DNA of 22,265 bases from a virus, in the IMG/VR virus record IMGVR_UViG_3300031697_000026, positions 1 to 22,265 of that record. One strand, written 5' to 3'. The number at the start of each line of letters is the position of its first letter. Positions within the stretch are counted from its first letter, which is position 1. A program made the translations under genes and the position numbers. This document shows, piece by piece, positions 4,659 through 14,561 of this stretch. The notes under the pieces are model-generated. The model was given only the letters and a program-made list of their open reading frames with translations. It did not search any database and was not told the DNA's origin.

Positions 4659-4839
4659 AAAGAATAAGAGAAAAAATCTAGCAGAGATATTTAGAGACAT
4701 GAAAATAGATTTTGATAAAAACCATAAACCAGAAACCCTACAGTCCGCAGGCTGTACGGGGCAATGTACAAACATGGGCGATTCTAGTAAGCCTAAGTGT
4801 GCTGACTGTCCTAATAAGCAAGAGGACTATATCTACTAA
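4600..4839 (+). CDS. small basic four-cysteine protein
   Basis: A 79-residue protein with a very basic N-terminal third (Lys/Arg/Asn-rich) and four cysteines near the end (Cys52, Cys56, Cys67, Cys70; CTGQC and CADC), suggesting a small zinc knuckle. It is probably a nucleic-acid-binding accessory factor, but I cannot assign a family. It overlaps the upstream gene by ATGA and the downstream nuclease by TAATG. Its first 19 residues recur at the start of the 90-residue protein upstream. Before the insertion of the repeat-bracketed segment, this gene would have followed the primase directly with the same ATGA overlap. Confidence 0.7.
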   Translation: MNTLIKNKKKALRKAKVLRQKNKRKNLAEIFRDMKIDFDKNHKPETLQSAGCTGQCTNMGDSSKPKCADCPNKQEDYIY

Positions 4840-6743
4840 TGGTAAATGTTGACGAAAAACATAAAGATATGTGGACAAGTGCTTCTGCTATTACGGACGC
4901 TTCAGATTGCTTCCGTAGATGGTGGTTTAATAAAGTAATTAAGATGCCGCAGGATCAACGCAAGGCCACTATACTTGGCGATGTATTCCATGCTGTCTTG
5001 GAAAGGTATTTTAGGGCTGATGATAGGGGCCTTGACGATAGAGGTAACTTAATAGAACTGTACCCTGCTGGCTGGAAAACCATGAAGAGTCGTTTTGGAA
5101 AAGACGATACGTTATACACTATCACAGACACAGAAGCTGCTCTAGTAAAAATTCTGATAACAGAGGCTATAACTCAGGGTATATTAGTAAGGGAACCGGG
5201 TAGGATAATCGAGCGAAGTATAGATATTCCTATACTCTCGCAGGGCAGGACTAAGGCTATACTAAAAGGATTTATCGATATCGATAGTCCAAGGTCTATT
5301 ACAGACCATAAGACCGCTAAGAATACAAACTATATCTTATCGAAAGCTAAGATTAAAAAAAGTATTCAGATGATGATTTATGGCTACGCTAAATATGTGG
5401 AAGGTCATAGAAATAATCTCTGGCTGACACATAATAATTTTATAAAAGATTTCGATAACCCTCAAGTGATCCAGAGATCAGTCGAAGTAACTGCGATGGA
5501 GATAGTAGAGTTTTTCCAAGAAACTATCGAGCCTATACTGAAAAGGATGCTCAACTATTATATTAAATATCCCAAGACTTCAATACATAAATGGAGAGAT
5601 ATACCGGGAGCCAATAACCCTAACCAAGCATGTAACCATCATTACGGTAAGCCATGCCCGTACATAGGAGTATGCACAGCCACATGCAGTATAGATAACT
5701 ACTTAAGAAAATACGGATTAACAGTAAATGAATTAGTCGGATACACCGACGAAACAGAGAAAGGACCGAAGAAAATGGGCTTAATGGAAAAAATCAGAGA
5801 AGAAAAAGCAAAGAAAGCGGCAGCGGCAGCAGCAGCAGGTATCTCGCAGCCAGCACAACCGGAACCAGCACAAGCGGCAACGGCGGTAGTAGAGACCGCA
5901 GAGCCTGTAGTAAAGTCGGGAGGTATGAAGGAACTCTTGGCCAGAATGGTGGGCAAGAAGACTGCAGCGGAGCCTGAGCAAGCAGCAGCCCCTGTAGTAG
6001 AGCCAGCGGCGGCGGTAGTACCAGAACCAGCACAGCCAGACTTATCGGGTAAGCAGGTAGCACCTTGGTACACAGACTACAACGGGCAACTGTGTGTAGC
6101 CTGCTCAGATAACGCTGTACCGGGCTACAATTCTGAGATGGAGCCTTGTCGAATTTGCGACATTCGTGCGAAAGAAGCAGGTAAGCCTACATCAGAAGAC
6201 TACAAGGTTGACGTAAACACAGATGGCTCGTTGACGTTCACTTATACAGGTGTGGCCAAAAGTGCCCCTGCGGGTGATACGACCGTCAAGGTAGTAGCAG
6301 AGAAGCCTGTAGTTAAGGTTGACATGCAACCGGTCAAGGATGCAGCGGAATTGAAAGCGGTCAAGGATGCAGCGGAGCAGTTCAAAGAGTCTGCGGCACT
6401 GCCTACAGCAAAAAAGGTAGAAGCAATGATGAAAGGCCCTCAGAGTTTTACTATGCTGATAGGTTGTACCTTCGCTAACGATCATACCGATCTTGTTATA
6501 TACGCAGATAGTCTGCTCGCCAGTGTGTTAAATGATGTCGCTACTGCAGCAGGTAAAGAAATAGCTTGTGTAGAACATTTCGCTTTAATGCAGGCTATAG
6601 ATGCGATGATTCCGTCGTTGCTTCCAGACCTGAAAGGCTTTACTGTTATATCTCTACCGCCCTCCAAGGGATCGGCACATGCCCGGCTCATCGATGGCTT
6701 GAGATTACACGCTACAACAATTATTTTTCCTTTTGCGGTATAA
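4839..6743 (+). CDS. Cas4/RecB-like PD-(D/E)XK nuclease with long C-terminal extension
   Basis: A 634-residue protein. Residues 20-290 show the Cas4/RecB nuclease pattern: GDVFHAVLE with His51, GFIDID with Asp147, DHK with Asp156/Lys158, and Q-x3-Y at 177-181. Cys24 together with Cys273, Cys279 and Cys283 (with a further Cys at 265) match the iron-sulfur arrangement of such nucleases. It likely resects DNA ends in phage recombination or replication. After residue 310 come an Ala/Pro/Val-rich linker (about 325-400), a second Cys cluster (CVAC 419-422, CRIC 437-440), a short internal repeat (KDAAEL / KDAAEQ) and a C-terminal domain of about 100 residues (533-634) that I do not recognise. Typical Cas4-like phage nucleases are about 200-400 residues, so the second half is an unusual addition. 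The start is coupled to the previous stop (TAATG). Confidence 0.75.
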   Translation: MVNVDEKHKDMWTSASAITDASDCFRRWWFNKVIKMPQDQRKATILGDVFHAVLERYFRADDRGLDDRGNLIELYPAGWKTMKSRFGKDDTLYTITDTEAALVKILITEAITQGILVREPGRIIERSIDIPILSQGRTKAILKGFIDIDSPRSITDHKTAKNTNYILSKAKIKKSIQMMIYGYAKYVEGHRNNLWLTHNNFIKDFDNPQVIQRSVEVTAMEIVEFFQETIEPILKRMLNYYIKYPKTSIHKWRDIPGANNPNQACNHHYGKPCPYIGVCTATCSIDNYLRKYGLTVNELVGYTDETEKGPKKMGLMEKIREEKAKKAAAAAAAGISQPAQPEPAQAATAVVETAEPVVKSGGMKELLARMVGKKTAAEPEQAAAPVVEPAAAVVPEPAQPDLSGKQVAPWYTDYNGQLCVACSDNAVPGYNSEMEPCRICDIRAKEAGKPTSEDYKVDVNTDGSLTFTYTGVAKSAPAGDTTVKVVAEKPVVKVDMQPVKDAAELKAVKDAAEQFKESAALPTAKKVEAMMKGPQSFTMLIGCTFANDHTDLVIYADSLLASVLNDVATAAGKEIACVEHFALMQAIDAMIPSLLPDLKGFTVISLPPSKGSAHARLIDGLRLHATTIIFPFAV

Positions 6744-6744
6744 A

Positions 6745-8901
6745 ATGGTAAGTTATTTGGATATACTAAACGGAGCCTCTCTCGCTCCTCTCTCACCGGT
6801 TAAGGCAGGGGTGGTCAGTCCCACCCTGCCCCCGGTGCCTCTTACCAGTAATCCGGTACTGGAGAGGTTTAGGACTGTCACAAGTAAGATGAGAACCACA
6901 GCACAAAATAGTATCAGGCAAGAGATCGAGAGGATTATAGCGTTGCCTATAATCGGTAACCCTACCGAACAAGAAATAGCAGAAGTAAGCGAGTACTATT
7001 GTCCTGACGGTAAAATCCTTCTATACCCTGAACAAGTCAAAGCTATAATGCAGTATCACGAGTATGGAGGCCAAATCGCCCCGGTCCCTGTCGGAGGTGG
7101 AAAAACTTTGATTAGTGTTATGATCGCTAATGATGCCTATAGTGTTTTTGGTAAACGTAAAATTTTACTTATGAATCCCCCTAACCTGATAGACCAACTG
7201 AGAGATACAGAGCTACCGTTTTATCGCAGGCACATAAGTATAAATGCTCCTTTCTACTGGCTGGCCGGTAGGACTGCTCCTAAAAGGATGCTTCTGGCCA
7301 AGTCTAAAAAGGCCGGGTGTTACGTAGTATCTTACAGTCTTTTAAGTGGTGCACAGGGAGCAGAGATAATAGACGCTATCGAGCCTGACCTTATTATAGG
7401 TGACGAAATACATTCGATTGCCTCTGCTAATGTGTCGGCCAGAGGTAGGAGATTCAAAGCCGCTGTAACTAAATTCGATCCTCAGTTGGTTGGCCTGTCT
7501 GGGACTATAACAAAAAAATCACCACGAGATTATCACCACCTTGTAACACATGCCCTGCAGGAAAACAGTTTTATGCCCCGGCCTAATGCTATAGCTGAGG
7601 AATGGGCTAAGGTGATCGACTGTAATGCGTCTAACTTAGATGAGTTTCATAGTAACTCTGTCCCTCAGCCCGGACCGATCAAGCCGTTAATAGAGTGGGC
7701 TAAAAAGAATTTTCCAGCAGAGAAATTCCCTAATAACTTGGTAGGCTTTAGGGCCGCATATAATAAACGCATGATTACATGCCCCGGTGTAGTGGCCTCC
7801 AACGGAGAGCAGTTAGGTGTATCGCTTAGAATATCTAACGTAAAGATAACCAAGGATGAAAAAGAAAATAGCAAAGGTTGGGATGAATTAAAAAGACTTG
7901 TTAAACAGCTTATCAATAAATGGATAGCTCCAAACGGTGACGAAATAGATCATGCTATGCACATCTGGCGATGGAGATATGAGTTAGAGGGTTTTGGTTT
8001 TTATAATAATTTATTCTGGCCTGAAGCTGAAAAGGTAGCCGCAAGAAAAAAGCTATCTATTCCCGACGCCACTGATATTTTAGATAGATCAAAACACCAC
8101 CACGAACTACATCAGGAGTATATGAAAACTCTAAGAAGGTGGATAGGCCGCAGAGCTACCAAAGGATTAGACACGCCTTTCCTCATCGCAGGTGATATGT
8201 TCAGGAACGCAGACAAGCATGTAGGGCACACACTCTATAAGTCTTGGAGCGATATGAGAGAAGCTAATTTCGATGGCATCTTAGAACGAGAAAAAGCAGT
8301 TGTACGGGTATGTGATTTCAGAATAAATAAAGTAATGGAGTGGGCTAAGGAATGGCATAAGAACAACCCGAATAAAGGTGCTATTATCTGGTTCCAGAAC
8401 AAGGGTGTATCTGAATGGTTAAAAGAGGCTTTCCTACATGCCGACTTACCTATGCTATACTGCCCTGCAGGTAAAGCGGGCAAGGCTAATTTAGAAGATC
8501 GTAAACAAGGAGACAAGTTTGCTATAGCCTCTATTAAGTCATACCACAAAGGATTAAACCTACAGTACCACCACGACACAGAATACTTTGCACAGTGGCC
8601 CAGAGAGGCCCACATAGCAGAGCAGTCGATAGGTAGGACTCATAGGAACGAGCAGCCATCGGACGAGGTGAGGGTGTTCCAGAGTATCTGCTCAGAGTTC
8701 GACAAAGTTTTGTTTGCAAGCTGTATAAATGACGCTGCATATATTCACCAGACATCACAAAAGCAGAAACTTATTTACGCAGACTACGACGAGAGACCTG
8801 CTATTTTACCGTACTCGGTTCTTATAGAATGGGGCACGATGGCACAGCAGTTAGATAGAAGTAGTGAGCAGTTACTTAAAGATAAATTTAAGGGAAAATA
8901 A
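6745..8901 (+). CDS. SNF2/DExH superfamily 2 helicase
   Basis: A 718-residue DNA-dependent ATPase. From ATG 6745 the motifs are: GGGKT at 117-121 (P-loop, Lys120), DEIH at 220-223, SGT at 252-254 and QSIGRTHRNEQ at 627-637 (motif VI of SNF2-type proteins). Between the two RecA-like lobes lies a long insert, as is usual in phage SNF2-like proteins. Such helicases accompany phage PolA and RecB-like nucleases and may remodel forks or recombination intermediates. An upstream in-frame TTG at 6733 would add four residues and overlap the nuclease stop, but I prefer ATG 6745, one base after that stop. No strong ribosome-binding site is visible, so expression probably depends on translational coupling. 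Strong potential stem-loops fall in codons 17-40. Confidence 0.85.
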   Translation: MVSYLDILNGASLAPLSPVKAGVVSPTLPPVPLTSNPVLERFRTVTSKMRTTAQNSIRQEIERIIALPIIGNPTEQEIAEVSEYYCPDGKILLYPEQVKAIMQYHEYGGQIAPVPVGGGKTLISVMIANDAYSVFGKRKILLMNPPNLIDQLRDTELPFYRRHISINAPFYWLAGRTAPKRMLLAKSKKAGCYVVSYSLLSGAQGAEIIDAIEPDLIIGDEIHSIASANVSARGRRFKAAVTKFDPQLVGLSGTITKKSPRDYHHLVTHALQENSFMPRPNAIAEEWAKVIDCNASNLDEFHSNSVPQPGPIKPLIEWAKKNFPAEKFPNNLVGFRAAYNKRMITCPGVVASNGEQLGVSLRISNVKITKDEKENSKGWDELKRLVKQLINKWIAPNGDEIDHAMHIWRWRYELEGFGFYNNLFWPEAEKVAARKKLSIPDATDILDRSKHHHELHQEYMKTLRRWIGRRATKGLDTPFLIAGDMFRNADKHVGHTLYKSWSDMREANFDGILEREKAVVRVCDFRINKVMEWAKEWHKNNPNKGAIIWFQNKGVSEWLKEAFLHADLPMLYCPAGKAGKANLEDRKQGDKFAIASIKSYHKGLNLQYHHDTEYFAQWPREAHIAEQSIGRTHRNEQPSDEVRVFQSICSEFDKVLFASCINDAAYIHQTSQKQKLIYADYDERPAILPYSVLIEWGTMAQQLDRSSEQLLKDKFKGK
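6794..6837 (+). other. large composite stem-loop at the helicase gene start
   Basis: The inner stem pairs 6804-6814 with 6821-6830 (GGCAGGG/CCCTGCC plus TGG/CCA, with one bulged G). An outer stem pairs CACCGG 6794-6799 with CCGGTG 6832-6837. No T-tract follows, so it is not a standard terminator. Confidence 0.6.
6845..6862 (+). other. second small stem-loop
   Basis: CCAGTA (6845-6850) pairs with TACTGG (6857-6862) around a six-base loop, seven bases after the larger hairpin. Confidence 0.5.
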
Positions 8902-9420: not shown

Positions 9421-9582
9421 ATGAAACTTATGACCACTAAAAAGTTTAACAAAATAATCGAGGCTACCAAAGTAGAAACACGAAAAGAGGATGCCAAGCT
9501 TGTACATGATACACTGTTTGAAAACGCCCGGTTAAGAGTAGCGTACACAGAACTACTTAATAAACTAAAGAGATTGAAATGA
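9421..9582 (+). CDS. 53-residue helical protein upstream of DNA polymerase
   Basis: A short frame (MKLMTTKKFN...NKLKRLK) with a strong AGGAAGGA site at 9403-9410, about ten bases before ATG 9421. Its stop overlaps the polymerase start as ATGA (9579-9582). The protein is basic and predicted fully helical, with a heptad-like Leu pattern near the C-terminus. No family is recognised. The good ribosome-binding site and the overlap argue that it is translated and drives coupled translation of the polymerase, which has no clear site of its own. Confidence 0.65.
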   Translation: MKLMTTKKFNKIIEATKVETRKEDAKLVHDTLFENARLRVAYTELLNKLKRLK

Positions 9583-12500
9583 GCGTATACGTAGATAGCC
9601 TAAATCTTTTTCAGCGTCCTGATAAAGCATATACTTCTAAGGTAGAAATAAATGTTATAAAGTCTTGTCATTTATTTGCCGACTCCAAAGAAGAGCTTGA
9701 AGGGTTTATAGAAGAGATTAACTATAGCCGTCCTAAGTATCAGCACGAATTAGCTATACCTCATTATGATCTACTGAAAGATGATCGTAAAAAAGCTATA
9801 GCTGCAGGGGCCATAACAGTTAGTACCTCTGATTTTAACGATAGATTATTGGGCATAGTCAGAGATAAACCCAGAGTATACGTAGATAGCCTAAAGCCGA
9901 GTATAAAAAACAAAAAGTGGAAGTACGATAAGAGTTGTCACATGGTATCCGACTCCTTAGAGGAACTCCACGCCTTCGGTAAAGAAATGAAACTTAACAT
10001 ACTGTGGTTTCAGAATCGCATAGGCTTGCCCCACTACGATCTTACCGAGGGTATGAGAGAAAAAGCCGTAGCTATGGGAGCCGAGGAAGTAAGCAACGCT
10101 TTTATAGTAGATATGATAATTAAAAACAGAAAGATTGAATCTAAACAGAAAGAGGAAAAAGCCATGCCGACCGAACCTGTTAACAAAGAAGCACCCGTAG
10201 TAGCTTTCGATACAGAGACTGATCTGATGTCTTACGAGAATCCTATATCGGAAGTTATGTGTATGTCGTACTGTAACGCAGGAGAACTAAAAGGATCACT
10301 TATAACACCTTGGGAGCACGACATATCAAAACAGTTGTCTGTTGCTTGGGCTATGTTGCAACACCATGTAGGACATAACGTAGCTTTTGATTTATCTGTC
10401 TTGGGCTACCATTACCCTGACCTGATGCCTCATATATTCGCTGCTCTGGATAACGGTATTATCCACGACACCCTGATAAGAGAAAAGCTTTTAATGCTCA
10501 CCCTACACGGTAGCATTGACTATATCGAAGTAAACGGCTGTACTGTCTGGCTTGATTATAGTTTGGCTGGTCTTGAAAATAAGTATTTACATATCGACCG
10601 ATCTGATTTGAAAGAAGATGCCGACGCTCCCCGGATGAATTATGTTATGTATAAGAATGTCCCTCTCGTAAATTGGGATGAGAAGTTTGTTACTTATGCT
10701 GTGGACGACTCGATAAATACCGGGCTTATCTATGAAGCTCAGGAGTTGGAGAGGGCCAAGTGTATTGAGATCACCGGGCATGATCCGTTTAAGGTTGAGA
10801 CTTTCAGGGTCAAGGTATCTTTTGCCTTGAGGCTCTTGGAGTGTATGGGTTCCAGAATGGACCCGGCTAAGGTCTTAGAAGTAGCTGAGAAATTCCGCAC
10901 AGAGTATAATCTCCCCAGACTCAGAGGCCCTCTGATAAAAGCAGGGCTGCTCATAGAGGCCGTACCAGCTACACCCTATGCCAAGGGTACCTTAGTTCAT
11001 ACAGAGGCTTGTAACGCTCTCAAGAAGGTTAAAGAGCATAAAGCATCACGTAAGGCTAAAACATGCGGTTGTCCACCTAAGATGAAAGGTGGTGTGAAAG
11101 AGAAAAGCCCTACAAAGCCTCTGTTTCAGTATATATGGGAATTAGCATATAAGAATCCAGATATCAAAGCATGGCCCTCGGATGGATGTGCCTCTGAACT
11201 TCGTAAAAGCGACACATATAATGCCGCTATCGAAGAGGGTGCCTTTATGCAGTATATCATAGGCATGGATATAGGTCATTTAGGACAGCCTGTGCTCCCC
11301 GACGATATCAAATTAAAGACAAATGAAGAATGGGCCTCTAACTTCGCTCATCTGGACCCTCTTCTGGCTATCTGGGCCGAGCGTAAGGCACTCAACAAGA
11401 TTATAACAGATTACCTGCCTAAAATGTTCTACACGGCACCTGACGGGACTGAGGTTCCTGCCGAGACTATCAGGGGGTCTTTCTACCCGCTATGCCTCAC
11501 AGGCCGCAGTAGCTCGTCAGCGAGTAAACTGTACCCTTCCAGAAACGAACAGAATGTCGATCCGAGGGTGCGGCCCTGTACGATCCCCAGAGACGGCAAT
11601 GTTATGGTCAGCACAGACTACAACGGTATGGAGTTAGGGACACTGGCTCAGAAATGCGTATCACTGTTTGGCCACTCGGTCATGGCCGACAATATAAATA
11701 GCGGCACAGATAACCATGCCTACCTTGCCGCACAGATAGCTGCTGCTCTGGACGAGCATTTTATCAACAATCTTTCGATACTTGGAATATTGCCAACAGA
11801 AAGAGATGCTGTATATAAAGTATTCTCTGAGTATAAAACTTTGAAAGAGCCTTGCGGGTCTGCGGTGTTCTGTGAGAACTTCAAGACTAAACATAAACAA
11901 GAAAATAGTGAGGACTTGGACCGCCCGGTACTATGGTCTGACTTCTTTGCGTACTATCGGTTACTGGCTAAACCAACCGGCCTCGGCTTCCCCGGTGGTC
12001 TCGGTGCCGCTACTATGGTAGCCTATGCCAAGGGCACATACAAAGTCACCCTGTCCTTTGATCTGGCTAAGAAGCTGAGAGACGTTTGGATGGAAACATA
12101 TCCTGAGATGAAGCAGTATCTTGATTGGATAAAAAAGCAATGCAAAGACCCTAACCATTCTCCTATAGATGTAGAGCAGGACGATGGCTCTGTGAAGAGT
12201 AAAACTTTCTTTGCTTACGATACCCCCAGAGGTATGCACCGGGCTAGATGTGGATTCTGTGAAGCAGCTAACGGTGCCGGGCTACAGGCTTTCTCAGCCG
12301 AGGGTGCTTTGGAGGGTCTCTACCAATTCCAGAAAACTACATGGCTGGCTAAAGAGGGTGATCTCTTATACGGCTCTTTCGCTATCAACTTTCTACATGA
12401 CGAAATAATCTGGGAGACTCCCGGCCCGATAGTCGATAAGCTCAAAGTACAGACAGTAGATAAGATAATGGTTGACGCTATGGAGGTGCTGACACCTGAC

Positions 12501-12623
12501 GTAAAAGCAGGCACAGAGTCAGCGGCTATGTTGAGGTGGTATAAAAAAGCAGAGCCTGTAATAGACGATAACGGAGACTTGGTGCCTTGGGTACCTGAGA
12601 TAGTTAAGAAAGGAGTAGTATAA
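9579..12623 (+). CDS. family A DNA polymerase with 3'-5' exonuclease and tandem DUF4031-like N-terminus
   Basis: The replicative polymerase, 1014 residues. Exonuclease motifs: DTE at 211-213, NVAFD at 267-271 and YAVDD at 373-377. Polymerase motifs: TGR at 641-643, motif A DYNGMEL at 680-686, motif B from Arg794 and Lys798 (RLLAKPTGLGFPGGLG) and motif C HDE at 940-942. Leu802 takes the place of E. coli Phe762, and Gly806 that of Tyr766. Residues 1-190 are two copies of a DUF4031-like domain with a 97-residue period: VYVDSL at 3 and 100, SCH at 29 and 119, PHYDL at 61 and 151, and GA at 77 and 167. Motifs A and B are about 114 residues apart, against about 45-50 in Taq or T7, so an insertion of some 65 residues lies between them. 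The start overlaps the previous stop (ATGA). Confidence 0.92.
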   Translation: MSVYVDSLNLFQRPDKAYTSKVEINVIKSCHLFADSKEELEGFIEEINYSRPKYQHELAIPHYDLLKDDRKKAIAAGAITVSTSDFNDRLLGIVRDKPRVYVDSLKPSIKNKKWKYDKSCHMVSDSLEELHAFGKEMKLNILWFQNRIGLPHYDLTEGMREKAVAMGAEEVSNAFIVDMIIKNRKIESKQKEEKAMPTEPVNKEAPVVAFDTETDLMSYENPISEVMCMSYCNAGELKGSLITPWEHDISKQLSVAWAMLQHHVGHNVAFDLSVLGYHYPDLMPHIFAALDNGIIHDTLIREKLLMLTLHGSIDYIEVNGCTVWLDYSLAGLENKYLHIDRSDLKEDADAPRMNYVMYKNVPLVNWDEKFVTYAVDDSINTGLIYEAQELERAKCIEITGHDPFKVETFRVKVSFALRLLECMGSRMDPAKVLEVAEKFRTEYNLPRLRGPLIKAGLLIEAVPATPYAKGTLVHTEACNALKKVKEHKASRKAKTCGCPPKMKGGVKEKSPTKPLFQYIWELAYKNPDIKAWPSDGCASELRKSDTYNAAIEEGAFMQYIIGMDIGHLGQPVLPDDIKLKTNEEWASNFAHLDPLLAIWAERKALNKIITDYLPKMFYTAPDGTEVPAETIRGSFYPLCLTGRSSSSASKLYPSRNEQNVDPRVRPCTIPRDGNVMVSTDYNGMELGTLAQKCVSLFGHSVMADNINSGTDNHAYLAAQIAAALDEHFINNLSILGILPTERDAVYKVFSEYKTLKEPCGSAVFCENFKTKHKQENSEDLDRPVLWSDFFAYYRLLAKPTGLGFPGGLGAATMVAYAKGTYKVTLSFDLAKKLRDVWMETYPEMKQYLDWIKKQCKDPNHSPIDVEQDDGSVKSKTFFAYDTPRGMHRARCGFCEAANGAGLQAFSAEGALEGLYQFQKTTWLAKEGDLLYGSFAINFLHDEIIWETPGPIVDKLKVQTVDKIMVDAMEVLTPDVKAGTESAAMLRWYKKAEPVIDDNGDLVPWVPEIVKKGVV
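9585..9604 (+). repeat. 20-nt repeat within the polymerase gene, copy 1
   Basis: A 20-nt stretch identical to 9876-9895 (distance 291 nt, 97 codons). It encodes the VYVDSL motif at the start of each DUF4031-like domain. Conservation at the DNA level suggests intragenic duplication. Confidence 0.8.
9876..9895 (+). repeat. 20-nt repeat within the polymerase gene, copy 2
   Basis: A perfect copy of 9585-9604, at the start of the second DUF4031-like domain. Confidence 0.8.
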
Positions 12624-13395: not shown

Positions 13396-13421
13396 AGGAA
13401 AATAAGACATGAGTAAAGAAA
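13396..13421 (+). repeat. 26-nt start-region repeat, copy 1
   Basis: Ribosome-binding site, ATG and first codons of the 65-residue gene. It matches 13949-13974 at 24 of 26 positions, including a run through ATAAGACATGAGTAAA. Confidence 0.8.
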
Positions 13422-13622: not shown

Positions 13623-13955
13623 ATGTGCAACGAAAAAGAGACATGGGTTAGAGTTCAAGGCTACCCAAACTATTCTGTAAGTTCTCAAGGCAGAATCAGG
13701 AATAACTTTACTGAGAAGATTTTGAAGCATCAGAAATCTAAGCGTGGAGGATATTACCCTTTTGTTAATTTGTACAAAAAAGGTAAACGTAAAAATCTAA
13801 CAGTACATGGAATAGTTATGAGGTCGTTTATAGGTAAACCCCCGGTCGGATATGTGATACACCATAAAGATGCCGACTTAACTAATACCTCTGTGACTAA
13901 TCTTCAGTATATCACGATATCGGAAAATCTAAGATTACGAAATAAGAGAGGATAA
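13623..13955 (+). CDS. NUMOD4/HNH endonuclease (probable free-standing homing endonuclease)
   Basis: A 110-residue protein. Residues 8-30 (WVRVQGYPNYSVSSQGRIRN) are a NUMOD4 motif, and 60-99 are an HNH_3-type core with VHGIVMRSF and VIHHKDADLTNTSVTNLQYI: His80, His81, Asn88 and Asn93 are in place. Such proteins cut DNA and often insert between phage genes, spreading by repair. It starts after AGAGAGGT, 16 bases after the preceding stop, and ends six bases before the RuvC-like gene. No intron or split gene is visible around it, so it appears free-standing. The coding frame is intact. Confidence 0.88.
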   Translation: MCNEKETWVRVQGYPNYSVSSQGRIRNNFTEKILKHQKSKRGGYYPFVNLYKKGKRKNLTVHGIVMRSFIGKPPVGYVIHHKDADLTNTSVTNLQYITISENLRLRNKRG

Positions 13956-13974
13956 TAAGACATGAGTAAAAAAA
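13949..13974 (+). repeat. 26-nt start-region repeat, copy 2
   Basis: Ribosome-binding site, ATG and first codons of the RuvC-like gene. It matches 13396-13421 at 24 of 26 positions, 553 nt away. Confidence 0.8.
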
Positions 13975-14561
13975 TCTACATAGGTATCGATCCCGACTTG
14001 AGGTTACTAAACGCCGCTATCGTCACATACGACAAAAGACCGCTGCAGGTATTCGCCCGACGTAACCCGTTGGGCATCGATGGTCAGGCCGTAGTAAACG
14101 CTTCACGAGCAGCCTGCAGACTCATCGAAGATGTTATATCCTACTTTGTTGTCCATGAGGAACTATCACAGTGCGAGACTGTTCTGGTGATCGAGGATCA
14201 GAACATGATGCACGTTAAGAAGATGCGGGAGAAGGGTAAAAAGATAAACTACAAAGATATAAAAACACTCGCTCAGGTAACGGGCTGTCTCATGGGTGCC
14301 TTTAGTAACATGAGTAATTCTTCGTATCTGGTACAGGCTATCGATTGGAAGGGTACCCTCCCTAAAGACATATCACATGAAAGATATTACACGGCTTTGG
14401 GGCTGGAGTCCGACGAGACCAAGAAACTAAAAAACATATATCCTAAAAGCCTCAAGGCCCTAAGCGAGTGGTCCCACGATAAAATAAACCCCGGTGATTT
14501 TATGGATATTAACGATAGTCTGGGGCTGGCACTGTACGGGGCTAAGAAAGGTTTGATATAA
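13962..14561 (+). CDS. RuvC-like Holliday junction resolvase
   Basis: A 199-residue protein with an RNase H-type fold. GIDPDLR gives Asp10, VLVIEDQ gives Glu78, and DINDSLGLALYG gives Asp182 and Asp185. These match the four acidic metal ligands of RuvC. The segment AIDWKGTLPK (126-135) is also typical of phage and bacterial RuvC-like proteins. The expected role is cleavage of four-way junctions and branched replication intermediates before packaging. Length is close to that of bacterial RuvC (about 170-190). It begins with a good AGAGAGGA site. The last codons lie one base from the next start. Confidence 0.85.
   Translation: MSKKIYIGIDPDLRLLNAAIVTYDKRPLQVFARRNPLGIDGQAVVNASRAACRLIEDVISYFVVHEELSQCETVLVIEDQNMMHVKKMREKGKKINYKDIKTLAQVTGCLMGAFSNMSNSSYLVQAIDWKGTLPKDISHERYYTALGLESDETKKLKNIYPKSLKALSEWSHDKINPGDFMDINDSLGLALYGAKKGLI

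Follow-up and report, generated by a model that had tools for sequence, protein, structure and literature searches.

Two tandem DUF4031 domains in one open frame with a phage family A DNA polymerase

DUF4031 is a domain family common to many phages, among them the T4-like ones, and to prophages. At the viral locus described here, a DNA polymerase frame opens with two copies of this domain, which raises the question of whether a replicative enzyme has gained an accessory head or whether neighbouring genes merely share a frame. The stretch of DNA analyzed (the window) is an IMG/VR virus record of 22,265 bases. Its replication module lies on the plus strand, in the order of an unassigned 270-aa protein, a primase/helicase-like 862-aa protein, a Cas4/RecB-like nuclease, an SNF2/DEAD-type helicase and the fusion frame. 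The nuclease matches PF12705 and the helicase matches the ResIII/DEAD and PHROG DNA-helicase profiles. Structural genes (portal, GP46) occupy the opposite strand from approximately 14.8 kb. A sub-threshold NrdR-like zinc ribbon is present in the small protein at 571-792, and no ribonucleotide reductase was seen among the scanned ORFs, a subset of those on this 22-kb fragment. The features of the locus are as follows.

4839..8901, plus strand: Cas4/RecB-like (PD-(D/E)XK) nuclease and SNF2/DEAD-type helicase of the replication module, from profile matches
9421..9582, plus strand: 53-aa ORF, the stop of which overlaps the ATG of the fusion (ATGA)
9579..12623, plus strand: single open frame of 1014 aa, DUF4031, DUF4031, linker, 3′-5′ exonuclease, family A DNA polymerase
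9579..9866, plus strand: DUF4031 copy 1, residues 1-96; PF13223 at 42 bits, model pLDDT 82.4
9585..9604, plus strand: first arm of a 20-nt exact repeat, coding for VYVDSL at the gene start
9873..10130, plus strand: DUF4031 copy 2, residues 99-184; PF13223 at 62.6 bits, model pLDDT 93.5
9876..9895, plus strand: second arm of the VYVDSL-coding repeat (20 nt, exact), where copy 2 starts
10131..10199, plus strand: charged linker from copy 2 to the exonuclease domain (about NRKIESKQKEEKAMPTEPVNKEAP), read from the sequence itself
10151..10166, plus strand: Shine–Dalgarno-like AGAGGA, 7 nt and ATG (M196), a candidate internal start for an 820-aa polymerase
10191..10778, plus strand: 3′-5′ exonuclease domain, with motifs D211/E213, D271 and Y373/D377 invariant or nearly so among relatives
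11256..12563, plus strand: family A polymerase domain, with motif A D680/E685, motif B R794/K798 and motif C HDE 940-942

The initial annotation had proposed that the front of the frame is a tandem pair of DUF4031 domains with common conserved positions and a period of 97 residues. This is borne out by the profiles. Residues 28-89 and 100-180 match PF13223 (DUF4031) at 42 and 62.6 bits, against a curated cut-off of 25.6 bits (jointly E 1e-26), and phrog_4887 is matched by both copies over almost the whole profile. The copies align to each other with 37% identity (E 6e-17), and both retain every conserved position of the family: VYVD, [SC]H, D, EL, Q, HYD, R, A and GA. Among approximately 230 distinct DUF4031 sequences, E-L, Q, H.D, R, A and G-A are near-invariant; the conservation of VYVD and H...D in that set is imposed by the search pattern itself. 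One AlphaFold model was built per copy with homologues from the fetched loci, and the two predicted structures have a common order of main elements (strand, strand, helix, strand, helix, helix). Both halves thus match the family above its cut-off and share a predicted fold, the two points on which the assignment could have failed. In these models, DUF4031 has a compact alpha/beta fold that bears a set of conserved polar residues, and neither copy has decayed.

Behind this head, residues 203-1014 form a complete phage family A polymerase that retains every catalytic motif, the motifs being near-invariant across relatives. The polymerase part matches PF00476 at 36.2 bits, over the cut-off, and phrog_17 at E 4e-35; the exonuclease part lies just below the cut-off for PF01612. 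A profile of the polymerase and its relatives aligns to the E. coli Klenow fragment through FDTET, motif A (DY..EL), motif B (R...K) and motif C (HDE). Leu802 falls at the E. coli 762 position (R794..K798...L802 aligned to RRSAKAINF762). No stop interrupts the 1014 codons, and the coding composition is normal on either side; the fusion of two tandem DUF4031 domains ahead of the exonuclease of a phage polymerase is seen as one frame.

The enzyme can be placed among known systems. A Leu762 type of PolA, accompanied by a RecB-like nuclease and an SNF2-like helicase, has been linked mainly to temperate phages (PMC6302109). The window has both the leucine and the nuclease and helicase just upstream; the relatives found here begin at the exonuclease domain, whereas the window polymerase bears the N-terminal DUF4031 pair. 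A lack of ribonucleotide reductase is another trait of that group; the scanned subset of ORFs in the window shows none. Bacterial DNA polymerase I has the same exonuclease–polymerase core (the Klenow part) but carries a 5′-3′ nuclease where the DUF4031 pair stands, and no Pfam 5′-3′ nuclease match was found anywhere in the 1014-aa protein. A parallel in layout is the fusion of uracil-DNA glycosylase (UDG) to PolA, described in phage PaBG (PMC7412058) and found here in two further loci (L379 and L058). In these, as in the window, a small accessory domain lies N-terminal of the exonuclease–polymerase. Their accessory domain is the glycosylase, with DUF4031 a separate gene alongside in L379 and L058, whereas the window has DUF4031 twice. 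The window protein itself has no UDG match with the same profile library that detects UDG in L379 and L058.

Polymerase relatives were gathered from IMG/VR and named phages, giving 95 polymerase frames including that of the window. A search for other DUF4031-headed polymerases among the remaining 94 returned none, and nearly all frames with a clear exonuclease motif I begin a few residues ahead of it. Two relatives have their polymerase in one open frame with something else upstream: an N6/N4 DNA methylase (L285:3143-6217) and a region lacking a Pfam match (L330:3188-6115). Searches of whole records (ctsHD2 and 12 + 50 polymerase-bearing records) gave a single DUF4031 above the cut-off, encoded by a separate gene of the syntenic relative G022.

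The family itself was sampled through approximately 255 frames found by pattern and homology, together with 79 more (about 330 in total). In agreement with the expectation that DUF4031 is normally a separate protein, nearly all are single proteins of approximately 80-125 aa. These stand-alone members have in common with the window copies the sequence profile (PF13223 / phrog_4887), the near-invariant residues and the predicted fold; they are single and separate, whereas the window copies are tandem and joined to a polymerase. No other tandem and no other polymerase-joined DUF4031 occurs among the roughly 330 frames, and two apparent double matches proved to be single domains split by an insertion. 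A few frames join DUF4031 to DUF4326 or DUF6247. DUF4031–DUF4326 fusions were noted in actinobacterial sequence (L245:6620-7282 and L165:7169-7825, both on the minus strand; L165 is Nostocoides), and DUF4326 genes elsewhere also neighbour DUF4031. When bacterial genomes were scanned, a T4-like profile found no DUF4031 and a DNA pattern found many. As judged from sequence, the arrangement in the window is real and, on its one metagenomic contig, unique so far within a known kind of enzyme.

The reading that we favour, with a probability of about 0.55, is that this phage replicative polymerase carries an accessory head of two complete DUF4031 domains, which probably acts on nucleotides or DNA. 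The head would take the place held by the 5′ nuclease in bacterial Pol I or by uracil-DNA glycosylase in some phage polymerases, and would be tethered beside the proofreading domain. In each copy the polar site (D, H, D, E, Q, H, D, R) looks intact, which suggests a small ligand-binding or enzymatic domain for nucleotides or nucleic acid. The literature searched names DUF4031 only as a table entry and describes no activity for it; the family matches no model among the NCBI named families, and a PADLOC search for defence systems gave no match.

A more specific version, which we regard as speculative and rather unlikely as it stands, is that DUF4031 serves as an enzyme for, or a sensor of, nucleotides or damaged or modified DNA and acts together with the replicating polymerase, two such domains being wired in cis here. 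If so, this widespread phage family would gain its first functional placement, in parallel to the UDG–polymerase fusions, beside which stand-alone DUF4031 also occurs. Few accessory domains are known at the front of family A polymerases, and DUF4031 is now among them. As its fusion partner is well understood, the arrangement also gives direct access to function: the polymerase supplies the assay and the conserved residues supply the mutants.

The alternative that survives best, possible and yet on the unlikely side, is an accidental one-frame pair. Here a DUF4031 gene would have lost its stop, the polymerase would be made mainly from the ATG at 10164, the long product would be rare or neutral and DUF4031 would have nothing to do with replication. 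The read-through frames of L285 and L330 are similar cases. The internal ATG has a predicted anti-SD pairing of -6.0 kcal/mol, as against -2.9 at the first ATG of the frame, and its AGAGGA-N7-ATG resembles the other starts of this phage. M196 lies 14 residues ahead of FDTET, inside the range of relatives' starts. A good ribosome-binding site and an ATG at the point where relatives begin mean that a plain 820-aa polymerase may be made too, and should the internal start dominate, the long form is possibly a minor product. Against this, about 5-7% of random positions reach the Shine–Dalgarno strength of 10164, which leaves that start merely suggestive. The ATGA overlap with the 53-aa ORF suggests that the weakly led fusion start may be translationally coupled, which favours the long form. 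The open linker and the retention of all conserved residues in both DUF4031 copies likewise speak against an accident. On the favoured reading, coupling to the upstream ORF would start translation of the fusion at 9579, and the plain 820-aa form would start at 10164, so that the polymerase probably comes in two forms, as far as these start signals indicate.

The genome context of DUF4031 bears on both readings. In favour of a link to replication, a stand-alone DUF4031 next to polA was sought in phages and found directly after a UDG-polA in L379, where it begins on the stop codon of the UDG–exonuclease–polymerase (L379:838-3740, plus strand). It lies one gene from a UDG–polymerase in an overlapping gene run in L058 (2941-6856, minus strand), a run in which one further gene, read from its sequence, probably encodes a sliding clamp and another probably a clamp loader. 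In L130 it is found 2.4 kb after the polymerase and overlaps a helicase-like gene. The stand-alone gene of G022 sits just upstream of the primase in the same module. This protein (L355; G022:C1:12025-12354), encoded downstream of a ThyX-like gene, has other residues in place of the conserved H, D and HYD; it is possibly an inactive or re-purposed member, and the active site would be non-essential there.

Against such a link, 75 further viral contigs with DUF4031 were sampled without regard to polymerase linkage; a family A polymerase is over the cut-off in nine, and lies within 1 kb of DUF4031 in only one of these. A rough estimate puts the chance probability of at least one such case in nine at about 30%. 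DUF4031 is therefore not dependent on a family A polymerase, and the idea of a dedicated polymerase partner was rejected, since polA is rare in these contigs and adjacency does not exceed chance. Stand-alone copies have mixed neighbours (DUF5131, DUF3297, DUF4326, ASCH, MT-A70, HipA-like) that point to no clear function. The link to replication thus rests mainly on the fusion itself. A role at the replication fork, as put forward initially, is still suggested by the fusion; it is weakened by the absence of a family A polymerase from most sampled DUF4031 viruses, which also favours the accidental pair, and by the internal start, which could uncouple the two parts.

A further proposal was that the pair duplicated recently and works at the fork like a clamp or by recruiting proteins. 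We consider this very unlikely. It has in its favour the tandem position ahead of the exonuclease domain and the 20-nt identity between the two VYVDSL-coding sites. That identity is genuine: the block extends to 22 of 23 identical nt (9582-9604 and 9873-9895) at a spacing of 291, or 97 codons. It is beyond chance (P ~4e-4 for seven identical codons), and shuffles expect no such exact repeat. Outside the block, the evidence runs the other way. The copies have a DNA identity of 53.7% over 82 aligned codons, and the 27 residues that are identical outside VYVDSL use the same codon in 10 cases, against 10.7 expected from codon usage. The synonymous codons are thus saturated, and the copies either diverged long ago or arrived separately. 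GC3 is 0.271 in copy 1, 0.469 in copy 2 and 0.476 in the polymerase (copy 1 against polymerase, P 1e-4). A tree places both copies near T4-like DUF4031 proteins; with long branches and a p-AU of 0.44, it does not resolve them as sisters. A recent duplication was therefore rejected, and the copies could not be taken as proven sisters.

The structural searches give no help to a clamp either. Sequence search returned no relatives of DUF4031 with solved structures, Foldseek with the DUF4031 models gave no match at E<=0.001 in PDB or BFVD, and no clamp-like fold was found. The best VIA-align structural alignments of both copies were to TrmE N-terminal / GcvT-like folate-binding domains, with Z of 6.0 and 6.6, below the value of 8 at which such alignments are trusted. 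These domains, at most a lead, have no sequence similarity to the copies, and the likeness may be a mere common alpha/beta arrangement. The invariant polar residues point to a ligand or reaction site and not to a passive clamp.

For the accessory head, the composition suggests an order of events. Copy 2 appears to have been paired with the polymerase for longer, and copy 1 to be a later addition. Most probably, a small DUF4031 gene beside polA, the present copy 2, was joined in frame through loss of its stop. In L285, too, a polymerase shares its frame with an upstream gene, there the DNA methylase. A second DUF4031, the present copy 1 with its AT-richer third positions, would have been added later at the gene start, an event that may have left or renewed the 20-nt repeat. 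The identical block itself likely goes back to recombination or conversion acting locally at the start of the gene.

A sequencing or assembly error that removed a true stop or frame change between two genes is highly improbable, for although there is one contig and single-protein searches retrieved no near-identical record or close relative of the exact locus, the 1014 codons are open with normal coding composition either side, copy 2 and the polymerase have the same GC3, and a stop-to-sense substitution at exactly that place is unlikely.

The repeat at the start of the fusion frame is one of four short-range exact direct repeats in the window (305-343/530-568, 4315-4389/4584-4658, 9585-9604/9876-9895 and 13401-13417/13954-13970; 39, 75, 20 and 17 nt, respectively). 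All lie at or just before gene starts, and shuffles yield none. Most include a ribosome-binding site and/or a start codon, with small cassettes between the arms. The pair at 4315-4389/4584-4658 belongs to two genes that are identical in their first 19 codons and then diverge. Together, the repeats look like a recombination route for the gain and loss of small genes at gene starts, and are a likely way for this phage to acquire small cassettes. Between the repeats at 13401 and 13954 lies an HNH endonuclease with a NUMOD4 motif (13623-13955), and its neighbour at 13962-14561, which has no Pfam match, reads like a RuvC-type resolvase.
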